64,000 bases of DNA from an uncultured Clostridia bacterium. Lineage in GTDB: Bacteria > Bacillota > Peptococcia > Peptococcales > Peptococcaceae. Within the stretch, counting starts at the first letter, position 1. Each line of letters begins with the position of its first letter. Shown piece after piece: positions 10,707-60,125 of the stretch. The notes under the pieces are model-generated. The model was not told where the DNA came from, searched no databases, and saw only the letters and a list, made by a program, of their open reading frames with translations. The position numbers and the translations under genes are program-made. The stretch is from positions 1 to 64,000 of the forward strand of contig CALXUG010000006.1 of assembly GCA_944391625.1 (NCBI GenBank), written 5' to 3'.

Positions 10707-11369
10707 TTACAGTTCCAGTTTATAGCCGAATTTGCGGATGGTTTGGATTCGTTTGCCAAAATCGCCGAGCTTGGAGCGGATACATTTAATGTGAGTGTCC
10801 ACGGTACGGGTATCGCCAAAATAATCCATGCCCCAAACAGCATCTAAGATTTGTTCCCGGCTGAGGGCGATATTCTGATTGTTGACCAGGTAGTAAAGCA
10901 AATCAAATTCTTTGGGTGTCAGGATCAGACGCTGCCCTGCATAGTGGGCGGTGCGCTGCCGATAATTGATAGTCAGGCCGTCTAGTACAACTTCGTTTTC
11001 CAGCAGCAGATCGCAGCGTTTTAACAGTGACTTGATGCGGGCGATGAGAATATCCGGACTGAACGGCTTGGCGATATATTCGTCAGCACCGCATTGAAAG
11101 CCGTGCAGTTCATCGGATTCCCCGTCGCGGGCGGTTAAAATTAAGATGGGTACCTTGGACTGATTGCGCACCTGGTTGCACACTTCAAAGCCGTTTAATT
11201 TGGGCAGCATTAAGTCTAAAATTAACAGACAGAATTCATCTTCGGCAAATCGTTCCAGCGCTTCTTGTCCATCAGCGGCTTCGACCACAGTAAAATTTTC
11301 TCTGCGTAAATAGGAAGCAACAATTCTCCGCAGATTTTCTTCATCTTCAACCAGTAAAATTTTATTCAT
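10707..11369 (-). CDS. OmpR/PhoB-family response regulator
   Basis: The receiver domain has the acidic pocket VEDEE, the phospho-acceptor Asp in LILDLMLPKLNG and the Lys in YIAKPFSP. A winged-helix DNA-binding domain follows (LTPKEFDLLYYLVNN, then the DTRTVDTHIKCIRSKLG recognition helix). The length, 220 residues, is typical. ATG at 11369 is chosen because AAAGGAG lies 8-9 bp upstream; the in-frame GTG at 11378 overlaps that ribosome site. It is the partner of the kinase immediately downstream, with a 13-bp gap. Confidence 0.94.
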   Translation of the reverse strand: MNKILLVEDEENLRRIVASYLRRENFTVVEAADGQEALERFAEDEFCLLILDLMLPKLNGFEVCNQVRNQSKVPILILTARDGESDELHGFQCGADEYIAKPFSPDILIARIKSLLKRCDLLLENEVVLDGLTINYRQRTAHYAGQRLILTPKEFDLLYYLVNNQNIALSREQILDAVWGMDYFGDTRTVDTHIKCIRSKLGDFGKRIQTIRKFGYKLEL

Positions 11370-11750
11370 AAAAGACACTCCTTTTACATTATTTTTCAGA
11401 TCGTTCCGAAAGATACAGGTAAAACAAAAAATACAATAAACTTCTATATTATACTATAGCAGAAAATTGTGTGGAACATGTGAGAGAATAAATACTTTTT
11501 TATTTTCTATGTTGGTTTGCTGTTTGAATGCCGGTAGCTTTTTCTGGAACGGATGCTGCCGCGATTTTTATTGTGATGTCAGAAAAACTGTGTTATGCTG
11601 ATAAAATAAATAATTTTGTGCCATATTGGGGCTTGTTGCGGGAACAATACTATAAAAAAAGAAATTTCATTAATAATAGTGATATAATTCTGTTTTTTTT
11701 ATAATAAATATGCTAAAATGAATGATTGAAAGAATTTTGACGGTTTTGGG
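11370..11750. promoter_or_regulatory. Divergent AT-rich promoter region
   Basis: About 380 bp between divergent genes, with no supportable ORF. For the + strand there is TTGTGA (11571-11576), a 17-bp spacer and TATGCT (11594-11599), and closer to the gene an extended -10 TGCTAAAAT (11711-11719). The minus-strand promoter of the two-component pair should lie near 11400-11470, where the sequence is very AT-rich, but I cannot pick it with confidence. Confidence 0.4.
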
Positions 11751-51109: not shown

Positions 51110-51703
51110 ATGGGCGCAACAGAAGAAATTATCAAAATAGCAAAAAAAAACAAGGGCTTCGTAACGACTGCAATGGTTGTTGCTGCTGGATTTTCCCGCG
51201 GGAATATAACATATCTGGTGGAAAAAGGGGAACTAGAACGATCCTCACGTGGTGTTTATATTTTGCCAGAAGTATGGGATGATGAACTCTTTAATATGCA
51301 AAACAAATTTAAAAGAGGAATTTATTCTTTAGAAACGGCGTTGTTTCTTTGGGATTTGACAGACAGAACCCCAAATACTTATATGATGACTTTCCCTGCA
51401 ACATATAATGTAACAAAACCAAAAGCAGAGCAAATCAAGTGTACGCAGTGTAAGGCGGATTTGTATCTGACAGGTATAGAGGAAATTATTACGCCAAGCG
51501 GTAATTTTGTAAAAGTTTATAACATGGAACGAACTTTATGTGACATTTTGAAACCTCGCAATCATATAGATATTCAAATCGTGACAGAAAGTTTTAAACG
51601 ATATATCGCCAGATTAGATAAAAATATTCCGTTATTATCGGAATATGCAAAAATTTTCAAAGTAGAAAAGCAGCTTAGAGCCTATCTGGAGGTACTATTA
51701 TGA
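51110..51703 (+). CDS. AbiEi-family antitoxin / transcriptional regulator
   Basis: A 197-residue protein with the AbiEi architecture: an N-terminal winged-helix DNA-binding domain (GFVTTAMVVAAGFSRGNITYLVEKG, SSRGVYIL) and a C-terminal antitoxin domain (YSLETALFLWDLTDRTP, VYNMERTLCDILKPRN). In type IV AbiE systems this protein represses its own promoter and counteracts the toxin. It overlaps the toxin gene by 4 bp. The DNA here is more AT-rich than the purine genes, which suggests acquisition. Confidence 0.9.
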   Translation: MGATEEIIKIAKKNKGFVTTAMVVAAGFSRGNITYLVEKGELERSSRGVYILPEVWDDELFNMQNKFKRGIYSLETALFLWDLTDRTPNTYMMTFPATYNVTKPKAEQIKCTQCKADLYLTGIEEIITPSGNFVKVYNMERTLCDILKPRNHIDIQIVTESFKRYIARLDKNIPLLSEYAKIFKVEKQLRAYLEVLL

Positions 51704-52548
51704 AAAATGCGATGCAATTAAAAGCGATGATAAAGAAACTAGCGAAAGAAAAGCATATCTCTGCACAATTGGTTATGCAAAATTTCATGTTAGAACGATT
51801 ATTAGAGCGGATATCTGTTTCCAAATATCGTGATAATTTTATCTTAAAAGGCGGTTTCTTAATTGCTGCAATGGTTGGTTTGGATACAAGAGCTACGATG
51901 GATATGGATGCTACGATTAAAGGTTTGCCTGTAAATGAGCAGACTATGCAAAATATGTGCGAGGAAATATGTAACATTCCATTAGAAGATGAGGTGACGT
52001 TCACATTTCGCAGTATTAGTGAAATTAGAGAAGGGGATATGTATACAGGTTATCGTGTAGCATTAACAGCAAACTATCCTCCAATGGCAGTACCATTAAA
52101 GATAGATATTACAACAGGAGATAAAATTACACCAAAAGAAATGGAGTATCGGTTTCAGTTATTACTAGAGGATAGATGTATATCTATTCTTGCATATAAC
52201 CTGGAAACTATTATGGCAGAAAAATTAGAAACGGTTATTTCCCGTGGTGACCAAAATACACGGCCGAGAGATTATTACGATATCTATGTTTTGACAAAAC
52301 TGCAGTCAGCAAACATTGGAATGACGGCATTAAAAGCCGCATTAGCTGCCACTGCAGAGAAGCGGGGCTCTATGGCAGTTATTAAAAATTATAGTCAAAT
52401 CATAGCGAATGTTGTAGATAGTGAAATTATGCAAAAACAGTGGAACAATTATCAAAAAGATTTTGAATATGCAGCAGATATTGCATTTACAGATACTTGT
52501 GAAACCGTGTTGCAGCTTATGGAATCTTTAACACGGGAAAATTCGTAA
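51700..52548 (+). CDS. AbiEii/AbiGii-family nucleotidyltransferase toxin
   Basis: 282 residues of the nucleotidyltransferase-like AbiEii family. The pattern FILKGGFLIAAMVGLDTRATMDMDATIKG holds the GG...DxD-type active-site region, followed by LKIDITTGD and, near residue 168, LETIMAEKLETVISRGDQNTRPRDYYDIY, the family's second signature. AbiE toxins modify tRNA or GTP and abort phage growth. The motifs look intact, so the pair is probably functional. It is the downstream partner of AbiEi. Confidence 0.92.
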   Translation: MKNAMQLKAMIKKLAKEKHISAQLVMQNFMLERLLERISVSKYRDNFILKGGFLIAAMVGLDTRATMDMDATIKGLPVNEQTMQNMCEEICNIPLEDEVTFTFRSISEIREGDMYTGYRVALTANYPPMAVPLKIDITTGDKITPKEMEYRFQLLLEDRCISILAYNLETIMAEKLETVISRGDQNTRPRDYYDIYVLTKLQSANIGMTALKAALAATAEKRGSMAVIKNYSQIIANVVDSEIMQKQWNNYQKDFEYAADIAFTDTCETVLQLMESLTRENS

Positions 52549-53120: not shown

Positions 53121-53975
53121 GTGGAGTCGGTGGACAAAGAAGAAACCTATTATTCCATTGGAGAAGTCAGTAAAATTTGCAATATCACTAAAAAAACGCT
53201 GCGGTATTATGACGAGATCGGCTTGGTTTCACCGGACAAAATCTGTGAAAATCATTATCGTTATTATAGCAGAGAGAATATGCTGCTAGTGCCCATTATT
53301 CGTTATTATAAGCAAATGGGCTTTAAACTGGAAGAAATGCGGTGGTTGCTGTCCGGCGGCAGTTATCAGGCGCTGGAGGAGTCCTTTGCGGAAAAAATTG
53401 CGGCGTTAAAGCAGCAGGAACAGGAGATCCACCACCAGTATGTTTCCATCAAAGAGTGGTATGATCTTTTGCAGGAAGGAGAACAAGTCATTGCCGGTGA
53501 TGTGCGGGAGGTTGCCGTTAAGTTTACAGAGGCGCAGACTTGTCTAGCCATGCCGATGCAATTTCAGCATCAATATATTGAAATGTTGCTCAATATTGAC
53601 TTTGCCAACTTTGTGAAAGGATTGGGAAATAAGACAAAAGGACCGATGATTTTATATTTTCCATCTTTAGAGAAACGGTTGCAGCAGCAGGCGCAGCAAA
53701 TCTATATTGTGCATCAAACCATACTTCCCTGCCCTGCAGAGCACCAGACACAGTTTGGCGGCCGCATGATGTTAAGCTGTTATCATATTGGTCCTCATGA
53801 AACATTGGGGGAAACTTATCAAAAAATGTTGGATTGGGCCGAGCGGCATCAATATCCATATCAGAATGTCTGCTATGAACGTTGTGTGACCGATTATTGG
53901 ACCACTCGTGACAGCGGTCAGTTTGTAACCGAACTGCTGATTCCGGTACAACGTAAGCAAAAGGAATTGTTATGA
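53121..53975 (+). CDS. MerR-family transcriptional regulator with GyrI-like effector domain
   Basis: 284 residues. The N-terminal MerR winged helix is clear (YSIGEVSKICNITKKTLRYYDEIGLVSP, RYYSRENMLLVPIIRYYKQMGF), followed by the long dimerisation helix (about 85-130) and a C-terminal domain resembling the GyrI/BmrR multidrug-binding fold. Proteins of this type bind a small ligand and activate promoters with an over-long spacer by unwinding. Such a promoter lies 65 bp downstream of this gene, in front of the shell genes, which makes it the probable regulator of the choline locus. GTG 53121 and GTG 53130 are both possible starts. Confidence 0.88.
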   Translation: MESVDKEETYYSIGEVSKICNITKKTLRYYDEIGLVSPDKICENHYRYYSRENMLLVPIIRYYKQMGFKLEEMRWLLSGGSYQALEESFAEKIAALKQQEQEIHHQYVSIKEWYDLLQEGEQVIAGDVREVAVKFTEAQTCLAMPMQFQHQYIEMLLNIDFANFVKGLGNKTKGPMILYFPSLEKRLQQQAQQIYIVHQTILPCPAEHQTQFGGRMMLSCYHIGPHETLGETYQKMLDWAERHQYPYQNVCYERCVTDYWTTRDSGQFVTELLIPVQRKQKELL

Positions 53976-54106: not shown

Positions 54107-54403
54107 TTGCGATATCAAGGCGGAGAAGCAATTGGAATGATTGAAACGTTGGGTATGGTGCCGGCCATTTACGGCGCTGATTTTATGCTGAAAGCTGCCG
54201 ATGTGGAGCTGATTTCTTACGAAAATGTGGGTTCTACACTGGTAACTGTGATTGTAAAAGGGGATGTGGCTGCGGTAGAAGCGGCAGTGGCTGCGGGCGC
54301 TAAGGCGGCGGCTTCTATCGGAAAACTGACAGCCAGCAATGTGATTCCTCGCCCAATTAAGGCAGTGGCCGATATTGTGGCGGTACACGATATAGATGCA
54401 TAG
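54107..54403 (+). CDS. Bacterial microcompartment shell protein (BMC-H) 1
   Basis: A single BMC domain of 98 residues, PduA/EutM-like: GEAIGMIETLGMVPAIYGADFMLKAADV, then GDVAAVEAAVAAGAKAAASIG and a short tail. It should form hexameric facets of the shell. The TTG start is supported by AGGGAGGG 7 bp upstream; there is no closer ATG. It is the first gene of the operon behind the MerR-type promoter. Confidence 0.95.
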   Translation: MRYQGGEAIGMIETLGMVPAIYGADFMLKAADVELISYENVGSTLVTVIVKGDVAAVEAAVAAGAKAAASIGKLTASNVIPRPIKAVADIVAVHDIDA

Positions 54404-54423
54404 AGCATATAGGAGAGAATACA

Positions 54424-54726
54424 ATGAAACGACAAAATGCACTTGGTCTGATTGAAATTTTTGGTCTGGCCTATATTTTGCAAGCCGCTGACGCTATGGG
54501 AAAGGCGGCAGATGTAGAAGTATTTGGTTATGAAAATGTGGCATCCGGTTATATTTCTGTGCTGGTGGGCGGCGATGTGGCAGCCTGCCGGGCCGCAGTG
54601 GATGCAGGAATCAAAGCAGTGGAAGAAATGGGCGGACAGGTGTACAGTTCTGCGGTAATTAATAATCCTCATAAGGATTTGTCCAAAATTACAGCCCGTT
54701 ATAGCTTTGAAAATTTGTTAAAGTAG
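54424..54726 (+). CDS. Bacterial microcompartment shell protein (BMC-H) 2
   Basis: A second canonical BMC domain of 100 residues (NALGLIEIFGLAYILQAADAMGKAADVEV, GGDVAACRAAVDAGIKAVEEMGG) with a slightly longer C-terminal tail (INNPHKDLSKITARY). It differs enough from the first copy to suggest a different pore. It starts 20 bp after the first with AGGAGAG upstream. Confidence 0.95.
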   Translation: MKRQNALGLIEIFGLAYILQAADAMGKAADVEVFGYENVASGYISVLVGGDVAACRAAVDAGIKAVEEMGGQVYSSAVINNPHKDLSKITARYSFENLLK

Positions 54727-54777
54727 TATACAAAAAAATCGCAATAGAAAAATAAGAGATAAAAGGAGCTGAAAACG

Positions 54778-56247
54778 GTGAACTTAATCGATCAGGATTT
54801 GTTATCTGTTCAGGAAGCTCGTATTTTGGCAGAACGGGGCATGGAGGCGCAGAAACAGCTGGCCCGGTTTTCTCAGGAACAGTTGGACAGCATTGTGGAA
54901 AACATTGCCGCCGCCATGGAACAGCATGCAGAAGAGCTGGCTCGTTCCTCCTGGGAGGAAACCGAATATGGCCGCTGGCAGGACAAATTAGTCAAAAATC
55001 GCTTTGTCTGCACCACTTTGCGGGAACAGTTAAAGTCCATCCGCTGTGTGGGAATGATTGCAGAAGATAAAACAAAAAAAACTGCCGATGTAGGCGTTCC
55101 CATTGGTATGATTGTGGCATTGCCGCCGGCTACCAGCCCCGTATCGGTTACTCTTTCTACTGTTTTGGTAGCGCTGAAAGCGGGCAATGCTATTATTGTT
55201 TCACCCCATCCCCGTGCATATAAAACCATTAGCCGGGCGCTGGAGTGGATGATGGCAGCGGCGCAGGAAGCAGGGCTGCCGGATGGAGCGCTGGCTTATC
55301 TGCATACGGTAACGGTGGCAGGCACCAGACAGCTGATGGAACATAAAGGGACAGCCTGTATCATCAACACTGGCGTACCTGCTATGCTGGATTATTGTAA
55401 TTGTGCTGGTAAGCCGGTGATTTACGGCGGAAATGGCCATGGTCCGGCCTTTATTGAACGGACAGCTGATGTGGCACAGGCGGTAGCCGACATTGTATTG
55501 AGCAAAACTTTTGATTATGGCATGGGGGCTGCTGCCGAGCAGTCGGTGGTGATTGACAGCCCTGTGGCCGATTTGGCGCGGCGGGAGTTTGAACGTCGAG
55601 GCGCGTATTTTTTATCCACAGAAGAAGCTAAACAATTGGGCAGCAAGCTGTTTCCAAAAGGTCAGTTGAATCCGGAATTAGTAGGGCACAGCGCTCAGGT
55701 CCTGGCTGCCAAAGCCGGTATTCAAGTGCCGGCAGATACACAGCTGCTGATGGTAGAACAGTCTTATGTGCCGGTGGAGCCTGGTTATCGCAAAGAGCTG
55801 CTGTGTCCTGTTTTGGCCTGGTATGTAGAAGATGACTGGCGGCATGCCTGTGAAAAATGTATTGAGCTTTTATTGACAGAAGGCACAGGCCACACATTGG
55901 TGATTCATTCTCAGGATGAAGCGGTTATTCGGCAGTTTGCGCTGCAAAAGCCGGTAGGACGGATTTTGGTGAATACACCTGCCTCCTTGGGTAGCGTTGG
56001 TATCACCACCAATTTGTTTCCGGCATTTACCTTAGGCAGCGGCTCAGCGGGAAAAGGCATTACCGCAGATAATATCTCACCGATGAATCTGGTATATATC
56101 CGTAAAGTTGGATATGGTGTGCGGGATGGCAGACAGGCTTTGCAGCGTCTGGCAGCACAGGAACAGCCGGCAGACAGTCAGGCTATGACATTGGAACAGT
56201 TGGTGCGGATGTTGTTGGAGCAGGAAATCCGGCAAAAAACATTATAA
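54778..56247 (+). CDS. Acylating aldehyde dehydrogenase homologue lacking the catalytic Cys
   Basis: 489 residues of the CoA-acylating aldehyde dehydrogenase family (EutE/PduP/AdhE N-terminal type): GVPIGMIVALPPATSP, LKAGNAIIVSPHPRA, NTGVPAM, and GITTNLFPAFTLGSGS. In active relatives the nucleophile Cys lies in KTFDNGxxCASEQ. Here the same segment reads KTFDYGMGAAAEQS, with Ala near residue 251 in the Cys position (codon GCT, 55528-55530) and Tyr for Asn. The frame is intact and full length. It is either a non-catalytic shell or scaffold partner, or it works by an unusual route. It lies directly upstream of cutC. Confidence 0.85.
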   Translation: MNLIDQDLLSVQEARILAERGMEAQKQLARFSQEQLDSIVENIAAAMEQHAEELARSSWEETEYGRWQDKLVKNRFVCTTLREQLKSIRCVGMIAEDKTKKTADVGVPIGMIVALPPATSPVSVTLSTVLVALKAGNAIIVSPHPRAYKTISRALEWMMAAAQEAGLPDGALAYLHTVTVAGTRQLMEHKGTACIINTGVPAMLDYCNCAGKPVIYGGNGHGPAFIERTADVAQAVADIVLSKTFDYGMGAAAEQSVVIDSPVADLARREFERRGAYFLSTEEAKQLGSKLFPKGQLNPELVGHSAQVLAAKAGIQVPADTQLLMVEQSYVPVEPGYRKELLCPVLAWYVEDDWRHACEKCIELLLTEGTGHTLVIHSQDEAVIRQFALQKPVGRILVNTPASLGSVGITTNLFPAFTLGSGSAGKGITADNISPMNLVYIRKVGYGVRDGRQALQRLAAQEQPADSQAMTLEQLVRMLLEQEIRQKTL

Positions 56248-56317
56248 TAAATGAATTATTTCAATACTGTCTATGGCATTGGATAAACATAGATATAGAA
56301 TTGTGAGGGAAATTAAT

Positions 56318-58855
56318 ATGGATATTCGTGAAATTTCTGAAAAATTTGCAGCAGCTACCCAGGGGATGTCTGCCCAGGAACGTCAGTTATTGACCCAGGC
56401 ATTTGAACGGGTAGCAAAAGAAATGGAAGCAGAAAAAAAAGCGGGCGCAGCCCAGACTGTAACCGATGAGGGCATTCCAGACGGTATGACAGATCGTTTA
56501 AAACGTCTGAAAGCCAATTATATGAAACAGGTGCCAAGCATCACCACCTATCGTGCAAGAATTATTACCAAAATTACCGAAGAAAATCCTGGTATGCCAA
56601 AAGCAATGCTGCGTGCTAAAAGTTTCCGCATGTGCTGTGAAACAGCGCCATTGCTGATTCAGGACGATGAGCTGATTGTTGGGCATCCATGCGGCGCACC
56701 TCGTGCCGGTGCTTTTGCTCCGGATATTGCCTGGAGATGGTTGGAACAGGAAATTGACACCATCAGCACCCGTCCGCAGGACCCGTTCTATATTTCTGAT
56801 GAAGACAAACGCATCATGCGGGAAGAATTATTCCCATTCTGGAAGGGCAAATCCCTGGATGAACACTGCGAAGATCAGTTCCGCGAAGCTGGCGTTTGGG
56901 AATTATCCGGTGAATCGGTTGTATCCGATTGCTCTTATCATCAGCTGAACGGCGGCGGTGACTCCAATCCGGGTTACGACGTTATTTTGATGAAAAAAGG
57001 AATGTTGGACGTTCAGAGAGAAGCCAGAGAACATTTAGAAAAACTGGATTATGCCAACCCGGAAGATATTGACAAAATCTATTTCTATAAATCCATTATT
57101 GAAACAGCAGAAGGGGTTATGATTTATGCCCGCCGTCTGTCCGAATATGCTCTGGAGCTGGCAGCAAAAGAAAGCAATCCGGTGCGTCGCGCCGAACTGC
57201 AAAAAATTGCAGAAATCAATGCCCGCGTACCAGCTCACAAACCGGAAACCTTCTGGGAAGCAGTTCAGGCTGTCTGGACTGTAGAATCTCTGCTGGAAGT
57301 AGAAGAAAACCAGACAGGTATGTCCATCGGCCGTGTGGACCAGTATATGTATCCATTCTATAAAGCAGACAAAGAAGCGGGCCGTTTGACCGACCGTGAA
57401 GCCTTTGAATTGGCGGGCTGTATGTTTATTAAAATGGCTGAAATGATGTGGATTACCAGTGAAGCCAGCTCCAAATTTTTTGCTGGTTATCAACCGTTCA
57501 TCAATATGACAGTAGGCGGTTTGACTCGCAAAGGGAAAGATGCCACCAATGATCTGACCTACTTGTTGATGGATGCTGTGCGTCACGTAAAAATTTATCA
57601 GCCGGCGCTGGCTTGCCGGATTCACAACCAGTCTCCGCAGAAATATATGAAAAAAATCGTAGATGTCATTCGTTGCGGCATGGGTTTCCCTGCTTGCCAC
57701 TTTGACGATGTACACATCCAGATGATGCTGCAGAAAGGCGTTTCTATGGAAGATGCCCGCGACTATTGCATGATGGGCTGTGTAGAACCGCAGAAAGCCG
57801 GCCGTCTGTATCAGTGGACATCTACCGCATACACTCAATGGCCGGTTTGTATCGAACTGACATTGAACCATGGGAAAACCATGTGGTATGGCAAACAGGT
57901 ATGCCCGGATATGGGCCCATTAAGCCAGTATAAAACCTATGAACAGTTTGAAGCGGCTGTAAAAGAAGAAATCAAATATGTTACCAAATTGACCAGTGTA
58001 GCTACTGTAATCACCCAAAGACTGCACAGAGATATGGCGCCAAAACCATTGATGTCCATCATGTATGAAGGCTGTATGGAAAACGGTCGCGACGTATCTG
58101 CCGGCGGCGCCATGTACAACTTTGGCCCTGGTGTGGTGTGGAGTGGCTTGGCTACCTATGCAGATTCCATGGCAGCTATCAAAAAACTGGTATTTGATGA
58201 TAAAAAATATACACTGGAAGAATTAAACGAAGCACTGAAAGCAGATTTTATCGGCTATGACCAAATTCGCAAAGATTGTCTGGATGCACCAAAATACGGT
58301 AATGATGATGACTATGCCGATAATATTGCAGCAGATTTGATCGACTTTACCGAAAGAGACCATCGCCGCTACAGAACCTTGTATTCCATTCTGACACACG
58401 GTACCTTGTCTATTTCCAACAATACACCGCTGGGGCAGATTACCGGTGCTTCCGCTAATGGCAGAAAAGCATGGACACCATTATCTGACGGTATCAGTCC
58501 AACACAGGGTGCTGACTTTAAAGGCCCTACTGCTATCATCAAATCTGTATCCAAAATGTCCTGCGACAATATGAACCTGGGTATGGTACACAACTTTAAA
58601 CTGGTTCCGGGCCTGTTGGATACACCGGAAGGGGAAAATGGTCTGATTACACTGCTGCGTACTGCCAGCATAATGGGCAATGGCGAAATGCAGTTCAACT
58701 ATCTGAGCAACGATACACTGCTGGAAGCGCAGAAACATCCAGAACAGTACCGTGATTTGATTGTACGGGTAGCGGGTTACAGTGCGTTCTTCGTAGAATT
58801 GTGCAAGGATGTACAGGATGAAATTATCAGCCGTACTGTATTGACGCACTTTTAA
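56318..58855 (+). CDS. cutC: Choline trimethylamine-lyase (glycyl radical enzyme)
   Basis: Cleaves choline to trimethylamine and acetaldehyde. 845 residues, matching the Desulfovibrio-type CutC in length. All residues I know for choline cleavage are present with an offset of one: Tyr207 and Asp215 ([13 protein letters not shown]), Cys488 and Glu490 (MGCVEP), the Thr of [12 protein letters not shown] near 501, and the radical Gly820 in RVAGYSAFF. The first 40 residues ([16 protein letters not shown]...) form an amphipathic helix that may direct encapsulation. ATG 56318 follows GAGGGA; the frame opens 15 codons earlier. Confidence 0.97.
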
Positions 58856-58881: not shown

Positions 58882-59817
58882 ATGATTGAACGGAAAGCCA
58901 CGATTTTTAATATTCAAAAATATAATATGTATGACGGCCCCGGCGTGCGGACCCTGGTATTTTTCCAGGGTTGTCCGCTGCGCTGCAAATGGTGCGCCAA
59001 TCCGGAAGGTATGGAACGTCGTCCTCGCCTGTCATTTAAAGAAGCGTCCTGTGTAAACTGCGGCGCCTGTGTAACCGCCTGTCCGCAAGGACTTCACAAA
59101 ATAGATGAGCAGGGTAAGCATCAGGTTGTGCGGGAGTTGGATAAAAACTGTACAGGCTGCGGCAAATGCGTTTCTGCCTGTTTGCAAAATGCGTTATCAG
59201 TGATTGGTGAACAGAAAAATCTATCTGAACTGATGGATGTGATTCTGGAAGACAAAGCCTTCTATGATACTTCCGGCGGCGGTGTTACTTTAGGCGGCGG
59301 TGAAGTGCTCAATCAGCCCGAAGCAGCAGCCAATCTGCTGTCAGCCTGCAAGCGGGAAGGTGTGCATACTGCCATCGAAACCTGCGGTTATGCCAAAACA
59401 GAAGATTTACTGAAAGTAGCTGAATTTGTGGATTTATTTTTGTTTGATATCAAACACTTTGATTCCAAACGCCATGCTGAGCTGACCGGTGTTCGCAATG
59501 AGATGATTTTAAAAAACCTTGAACTTTTGCTGCAAAAGCGGTATCATGTAAAAATCAGGATGCCGTTGTTGAAAGGCATCAATGACAGCAAGGAAGAAAT
59601 CCAGCAGGTAATGGAGTTTTTACTGCCCTATCGGGATGCCAAAAACTTTGACGGTGTCGATTTGTTGCCGTATCATAAATTGGGAGTCAATAAATATCAG
59701 CAGCTGGGTATGACTTATCCAATAGAAGGTGATCCCAGTTTGTCCAATGCCGATTTGGATCAAATCGAGCAGTGGGTGCGCCAATATGATATGCCTGTAG
59801 CTGTGATTCGTCATTAG
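58882..59817 (+). CDS. cutD: CutC-activating radical SAM enzyme
   Basis: Installs the glycyl radical on CutC. 311 residues: the radical-SAM motif CPLRCKWC near residue 31, then an inserted ferredoxin-like domain with two 4Fe-4S motifs (CVNCGACVTACPQG and CTGCGKCVSACLQ), then GGGVTLGGGE and the C-terminal barrel. This domain order is standard for glycyl-radical activases. It lies 26 bp after cutC and 11 bp before the last shell gene. Confidence 0.96.
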   Translation: MIERKATIFNIQKYNMYDGPGVRTLVFFQGCPLRCKWCANPEGMERRPRLSFKEASCVNCGACVTACPQGLHKIDEQGKHQVVRELDKNCTGCGKCVSACLQNALSVIGEQKNLSELMDVILEDKAFYDTSGGGVTLGGGEVLNQPEAAANLLSACKREGVHTAIETCGYAKTEDLLKVAEFVDLFLFDIKHFDSKRHAELTGVRNEMILKNLELLLQKRYHVKIRMPLLKGINDSKEEIQQVMEFLLPYRDAKNFDGVDLLPYHKLGVNKYQQLGMTYPIEGDPSLSNADLDQIEQWVRQYDMPVAVIRH

Positions 59818-59828
59818 GAGTGAATGTT

Positions 59829-60125
59829 ATGGATATTCGTATCATAAAATCCCCATCGGTCGGAACTATGGAGATTTTAAAGCATCGTATCGGTTTTGGT
59901 ATGGAGGAAAGCATAGCGTATGCAGATACAGTTGGATTGGTGCAGGGTAAACTGATTGATATGATCTGCGCTGCGGATATTGCTGAAAAGGCAGTGGGTG
60001 TTACTGTGCGGGACGTGCGGGGAAGTTGTCCGCAGAATATGGTTCTGTTGGCTCTTTTTGGCGATACTGCTTCCGTAGAGGCTGCATTGGAGCAAATTAA
60101 GGTTGCCTTAGGCAATAAAGTGTGA
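59829..60125 (+). CDS. Circularly permuted BMC shell protein (EutS/CutR-like)
   Basis: 98 residues. The BMC fold is present, but the order of strands is permuted as in EutS, PduU and the choline-locus protein CutR: IIKSPSVGTMEILKHRIG first, then TVGLVQGKLIDMICAADIAEKAV and NMVLLALFGDTASVEAALEQIK. The ATG at 59829 has AGGAGTG about 7 bp upstream. It closes the operon and, with the two BMC-H proteins, is the only shell component here. No BMC-P (EutN/CcmL-like) protein is encoded. Confidence 0.87.
   Translation: MDIRIIKSPSVGTMEILKHRIGFGMEESIAYADTVGLVQGKLIDMICAADIAEKAVGVTVRDVRGSCPQNMVLLALFGDTASVEAALEQIKVALGNKV

Follow-up and report, generated by a model that had tools for sequence, protein, structure and literature searches.

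A conserved aldehyde dehydrogenase homologue without the catalytic Cys lies beside choline trimethylamine-lyase in a reduced microcompartment locus

The 64,000-nucleotide stretch of DNA analyzed here (the window), from an uncultured member of the Peptococcaceae, encodes a full-length homologue of acylating acetaldehyde dehydrogenase (ALDH) in which Ala occupies the position of the catalytic Cys. This protein belongs to a clade of Cys-less ALDHs, and its locus is not a standard GRM1 (type I cut) choline microcompartment locus, as no Cys-bearing AldDh is found there. We give a probability of roughly 60% to the reading that it is a conserved, encapsulation peptide-bearing, non-catalytic cargo or assembly partner of CutC and the shell, possibly binding CoA or NAD. 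The observations behind this reading are the loss of active-site residues, membership of the clade, synteny, sequence constraint, a retained C-terminal tail and the absence of an active copy from the locus.

The cut locus of the window comprises seven genes (MerR, BMC-H, BMC-H, Cys-less ALDH, CutC, CutD and GrpU). It is flanked on one side by an AbiE toxin-antitoxin pair (AbiEi/AbiEii type, at 51110-52548, immediately upstream) and on the other by a P-type ATPase. The genes, and the features of the Cys-less ALDH discussed here, are as follows:

53121-53975, + strand: MerR-family regulator with MerR and GyrI-like domains; closest to NF053782 (choline utilization activator), at 349 bits, below the cut-off of 450
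54107-54403, + strand: BMC-H shell protein 1 (PF00936, 93 bits); the first codon is TTG and the true start may be slightly downstream
54424-54726, + strand: BMC-H shell protein 2 (PF00936, 85 bits)
54778-56247, + strand: Cys-less acylating acetaldehyde dehydrogenase homologue, the GRM1 "second AldDh", 489 aa
55135-55137, + strand: codon 120, Ser (AGC) replacing the TNP Asn (oxyanion)
55423-55428, + strand: codons 216-217, Tyr-Gly, a hallmark of the Cys-less clade (Gly-Val in active paralogues)
55528-55530, + strand: codon 251, Ala (GCT) at the catalytic Cys position
56191-56241, + strand: predicted C-terminal helix (residues 472-488), encapsulation-peptide-like, after a flexible linker
56273-58855, + strand: cutC, choline trimethylamine-lyase (TIGR04394, 1634 bits, cut-off 1050)
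58882-59817, + strand: cutD, CutC-activating radical SAM enzyme (TIGR04395, 534 bits, cut-off 360)
59820-60125, + strand: small BMC-H-like protein in the GrpU position (weak PF00936)

Comparison with the C. ljungdahlii genome (L071) indicates that the true start of cutC is likely to be 56318, as in that species. The protein in the GrpU position is 56-76% identical to the product of the gene that complete GRM1 loci carry between EutJ and EutN.

The open reading frame of the Cys-less ALDH begins with GTG and ends with TAA, contains no internal stop or frameshift, and is preceded by AAGGAG at 54763-54768, nine bases 5' of the GTG. Its active-site motif reads K243-T-F-D-Y-G-M-G-A251-A-A-E-Q-S, and HMMER alignment placed A251, without gaps, on the catalytic Cys of both PDB 3k9d (E 5e-128) and PDB 5j78 (E 7e-104). 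The original prediction of a full-length, in-frame ALDH with Ala (GCT) at the nucleophile is thus borne out. We considered whether another Cys might serve as the nucleophile; the other Cys residues of the protein (78, 90, 194, 207, 209, 343, 358 and 361) include none near A251 in sequence, and the gap-free motif rules this candidate out. An assembly error or frameshift was likewise ruled out, as the frame is unbroken and Val is present at the residue-251 site in the sister genomes G003 and G004.

An AlphaFold model of the protein (pLDDT 82) has an intact ALDH fold, with a TM score of 0.87 to 3k9d. The protein shares with EutE-like acylating ALDHs (TIGR02518; 3k9d, 5j78) a full-length fold and 38-46% identity, but it differs from them in lacking the catalytic Cys and the oxyanion Asn, and it scores 516 bits against TIGR02518 (acetylating acetaldehyde dehydrogenase), below the equivalog cut-off of 620. 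An experimental analogy is the C269A mutant of C. phytofermentans PduP, in which activity was abolished and structure unchanged (PMC4762007). A251 is the natural counterpart of that substitution, and the window protein additionally lacks the TNP Asn (N138 in C. phytofermentans, equated with S120 by the same +18 offset that relates H162 to H144). A protein of this kind would fold as an acylating ALDH, but could form neither a thiohemiacetal nor an acyl-enzyme and so would make no acetyl-CoA. We regard it as very probably inactive in catalysis.

Relatives were taken from 60 genomes and 80 loci of the genome collection, and gave 86 full-length Cys-less sequences. The catalytic Cys is missing from 86/86 of these (Ser 63, Pro 13, Ala 6, Thr 3, Val 1), which excludes chance as the explanation of its loss. 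The other ALDH of GRM1 loci, the active paralogue, has Cys in 43/43. A tree split the two groups with a support of 1.0, and the window protein groups with the Cys-less copies, apart from the active AldDh. G250 and A251 of the window motif are atypical even within the clade.

Two further differences separate the groups. The TNP Asn (residue 120) is present in 43/43 active paralogues but in only 12/86 Cys-less copies, of which 73/86 have Ser, and the Gly-Val pair of the active paralogues (43/43 for each residue) is replaced in the clade by Tyr216 (84/86) and Gly217 (85/86). The change of Asn to Tyr beside the nucleophile (Tyr247), which had been proposed as a second sign of inactivity, is present in the window protein; however, it is no marker of inactivity, because KTFDYG also occurs in 6/43 Cys-bearing paralogues and in PDB 5j78. 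The informative second loss is that of the TNP Asn. Sporomusa, Desulfosporosinus and Desulforamulus, the Cys-less lineages nearest the active group on the tree, carry Ser in place of the Cys but retain the oxyanion Asn, which suggests, with the rooting that we infer, that the loss of Cys preceded that of Asn. Elsewhere in the sequence, Cys343 (55804-55806 in the window), beside the cofactor residue Glu340, is clade-specific (74/86; active paralogues have Thr, Ala or Ser there), and 64/86 members have Cys at 116, where the window protein has Pro.

Could these proteins still be enzymes, acting through another nucleophile or in another reaction? Cys343, near Glu340 in 74/86, and Cys116, in 64/86, could be candidates, and the His and Glu residues are kept. 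Yet C343 is missing from 12/86 members, C116 from the window protein itself, the oxyanion Asn is gone, and Ala, Pro and Val are all found at the Cys site. We consider this reading barely credible. Trapping of aldehyde, one of the three roles (structural, cofactor-holding or trapping) put forward originally, is the least supported of them, since the protein no longer has the nucleophile to which an aldehyde would attach.

In 80/80 loci the Cys-less ALDH is the gene immediately preceding cutC. As the 80-locus scan used a pattern derived from the clade, 80/80 does not represent an unbiased sample, and a second sample was therefore seeded with cutC. In that sample the gene was present in 8/10 genomes of the phylum above the CutC cut-off, and 8/8 of these copies were Cys-less. 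The two genomes without it, G099 and G137, are from one genus and have a complete GRM1 locus in which the active ALDH is present and the Cys-less ALDH absent. The Cys-less copy has been conserved in two phyla, Bacillota and Desulfobacterota.

That choline microcompartments widely carry a Cys-less companion ALDH is known already, and the second divergent homologue mentioned in the original prediction is described in two papers. Axen et al. 2014 (PMC4207490) reported second AldDh copies with Ser or Pro in choline microcompartment loci and proposed a scaffold or regulator; Sutter et al. 2021 (PMC8217296) listed a "putatively inactive second copy" of AldDh in GRM1. The window protein shares with these inactive copies of GRM1A and GRM1B its family, the lost Cys, its place between BMC-H and cutC, and a predicted tail resembling an encapsulation peptide (EP). 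It differs in having Ala, and Val in the sister species, where Ser or Pro had been reported. We found no experiment in the literature on any member of the Cys-less clade; expression data from C. ljungdahlii (PMC12016505) do show that CLJU_RS19625, the orthologue in this position, is induced by choline (7.2 log2) with CutC (7.9 log2) and shell genes, and that the active ALDH is induced by 5.6 log2. That locus has the order of the window (BMC-H, BMC-H, Cys-less ALDH, CutC, CutD), but differs in the Pro at the Cys site of the ALDH upstream of cutC (genome L071), in being a complete GRM1 locus, and in having an active paralogue, RS19570.

Of the 129 sites that never vary among active paralogues, 82 show the same residue in at least 90% of Cys-less sequences; 31 more are invariant solely in the Cys-less clade, and the window protein keeps 30/31. 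At a matched CutC distance of 0.12-0.20, mean divergence was 0.314 for Cys-less copies and 0.321 for active ones, so the Cys-less copy has not diverged more quickly than the active one. The pair formed by the window genome (G000) and G003 has a divergence of 0.30, ordinary against a mean of 0.31 over 1184 pairs, and the CutC-matched distances rule out accelerated decay in the reduced locus. The dN/dS ratio is ~0.1, a figure that serves only as a guide as dS is saturated. The original suggestion of a retained degenerate copy therefore understates the case: the gene has invariant residues of its own, evolves at the rate of the active paralogue and is conserved in two phyla. A gene in decay that is being lost from the reduced locus would fit the disappearance of the gene from G001 and G005, of the same genus, and the G250 and A251 that are unusual even for the clade. 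The intact frame, the low dN/dS, the ordinary divergence from G003 and the retained clade-specific residues all speak against it, and we hold such decay to be very improbable.

A candidate encapsulation tail is retained as well. In the window protein a helix is predicted at residues 472-488, behind a linker in which pLDDT falls below 50 (residues 462-467); its hydrophobic moment, 0.43, is lower than the clade median of 0.65. Amphipathic tails are present in 93% of the Cys-less clade, compared with 95% of active paralogues.

Residues that contact CoA or NAD are kept in most of the clade: H144 in 82/86, E340 in 81/86 and H372 in 85/86. The main rival to our reading arises from this observation, namely a protein that holds CoA and/or NAD inside the compartment lumen and buffers a private cofactor pool without catalysis. 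H144 (CoA phosphate), E340 (nicotinamide ribose) and H372/T373 (general base) are kept in about 95-99% of the clade, and the C269A mutant of the C. phytofermentans homologue was crystallized with CoA (PMC4762007; PDB 5dbv). On the other hand, the kept residues may serve the fold alone, and the invariant Tyr-Gly (216-217), which the alignment positions by the active site, might fill the pocket. We think it unlikely that cofactor holding is the explanation, though it is compatible with an assembly role and the two are not mutually exclusive.

The composition of the locus sets the window apart. Complete GRM1 loci have the order BMC-H, BMC-H, Cys-less ALDH, CutC, CutD, EutS, EutP, EutJ, GrpU, EutN, PduS, PduT, BMC-H, active ALDH, PduL. 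Unlike the GRM1A and GRM1B loci, that of the window is without active AldDh, PduL, EutN (BMC-P), PduS/PduT and EutJ/EutP. The Cys-less ALDH is the sole ALDH in the cut locus, as had been predicted, and the case is unusual because the active partner is missing. G003 and G004 have the same reduced module (MerR was observed in G004); two further members of the genus, G001 and G005, keep BMC-CutC-CutD-GrpU and have lost the Cys-less ALDH. The two BMC-H genes of the window (54107-54726) are fused in G003, G001 and G005 as one tandem-BMC protein with two BMC domains (L164:8676-9314, L158:7769-8395 and L159:9909-10544), so that these shell proteins have recently either fused or split.

A candidate active enzyme is found elsewhere in the genome, in agreement with the pseudoenzyme originally proposed. 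A Cys-bearing acylating paralogue (KTFDNGTICASEQ) is encoded on contig C14 (G000:C14:14028-15377), and is the only full-length Cys-bearing acylating ALDH found in the genome. AdhE was rejected as the missing enzyme: a genome search with the window protein gave only the C14 ALDH and a partial match (27%, in an 808-aa frame on C13). The C14 ALDH lies in a second BMC locus (L041:5736-17998) with LysR, PduL, PduS/PduT, an amidohydrolase (PF04909) and the only EutN found in the genome. The amidohydrolase has a helical-looking N-terminal extension, and two adjacent BMC-H genes (L041:10975-11256 and 11341-11622) encode identical 93-aa products, as if recently duplicated. Judged by EutN, the C14 locus is present in 6/8 members of the genus, and the remaining two genomes are 76-80% complete. 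The C14 locus could be a detached half of the GRM1 locus, but we do not favor this reading, as its ALDH is separated on the tree from the active GRM1 ALDHs and it has its own LysR and amidohydrolase. Elsewhere, the genome contains four more glycyl radical enzymes that belong to other types and fall short of the CutC cut-off (G000:C11:21812-32802, C33:28332-30734 and C3:165784-168120), and two more BMC-domain matches (44-52 bits) at G000:C32:33102-33740.

These gene contents also bear on the idea that the Cys-less copy forms hetero-oligomers with the active ALDH, tuning or positioning it. ALDHs form tetramers, and both paralogues occur in one GRM1 locus, and choline induces the two together in C. 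ljungdahlii. The genus of the window, however, keeps the dead copy with the active one gone from the locus, G099 and G137 keep the active ALDH alone, and gene order links the Cys-less ALDH to CutC and not to the active ALDH. A mixed-tetramer regulator is accordingly quite unlikely.

We return to the preferred reading, a non-catalytic partner of CutC and the shell. That the Cys-less ALDH was kept beside CutC after the rest of the pathway had left suggests that it works with CutC or the shell, and not in the dehydrogenase step; as it was lost twice in the sampled genomes (G001/G005 and G099/G137), the role is not essential. The protein would be produced alongside CutC and both BMC-H proteins, and its encapsulation-peptide-like helix would draw it to the shell. 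There it may serve the CutC/shell module, without catalysis, as cargo or in assembly, possibly holding CoA or NAD. The acetaldehyde from CutC would be oxidized in trans, presumably by the Cys-bearing ALDH of the C14 locus. A bolder version, which we consider speculative and improbable, is that the choline locus of this genus has shed its core, that the remaining module (two BMC-H, dead ALDH, CutC, CutD and GrpU) borrows the active ALDH, PduL and pentamers of C14, and that the dead ALDH is an adaptor placing CutC cargo in the borrowed shell.

New to the family are the Ala and Val versions, and a reduced seven-gene cut locus, within one genus, that keeps just the Cys-less copy. New also is the finding that this copy is as slow-evolving as its active sibling, with 30/31 clade residues and a putative EP-like tail, yet is lost in some genomes. 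A dead copy that is as conserved as the active one and stays by the choline lyase suggests service to CutC or the shell. The dead copy has been known for eleven years with no function assigned to it, and its persistence poses a concrete question about how trimethylamine-producing microcompartments are built, and the genus offers natural controls in sister species that have or lack the Cys-less ALDH in an otherwise identical locus.
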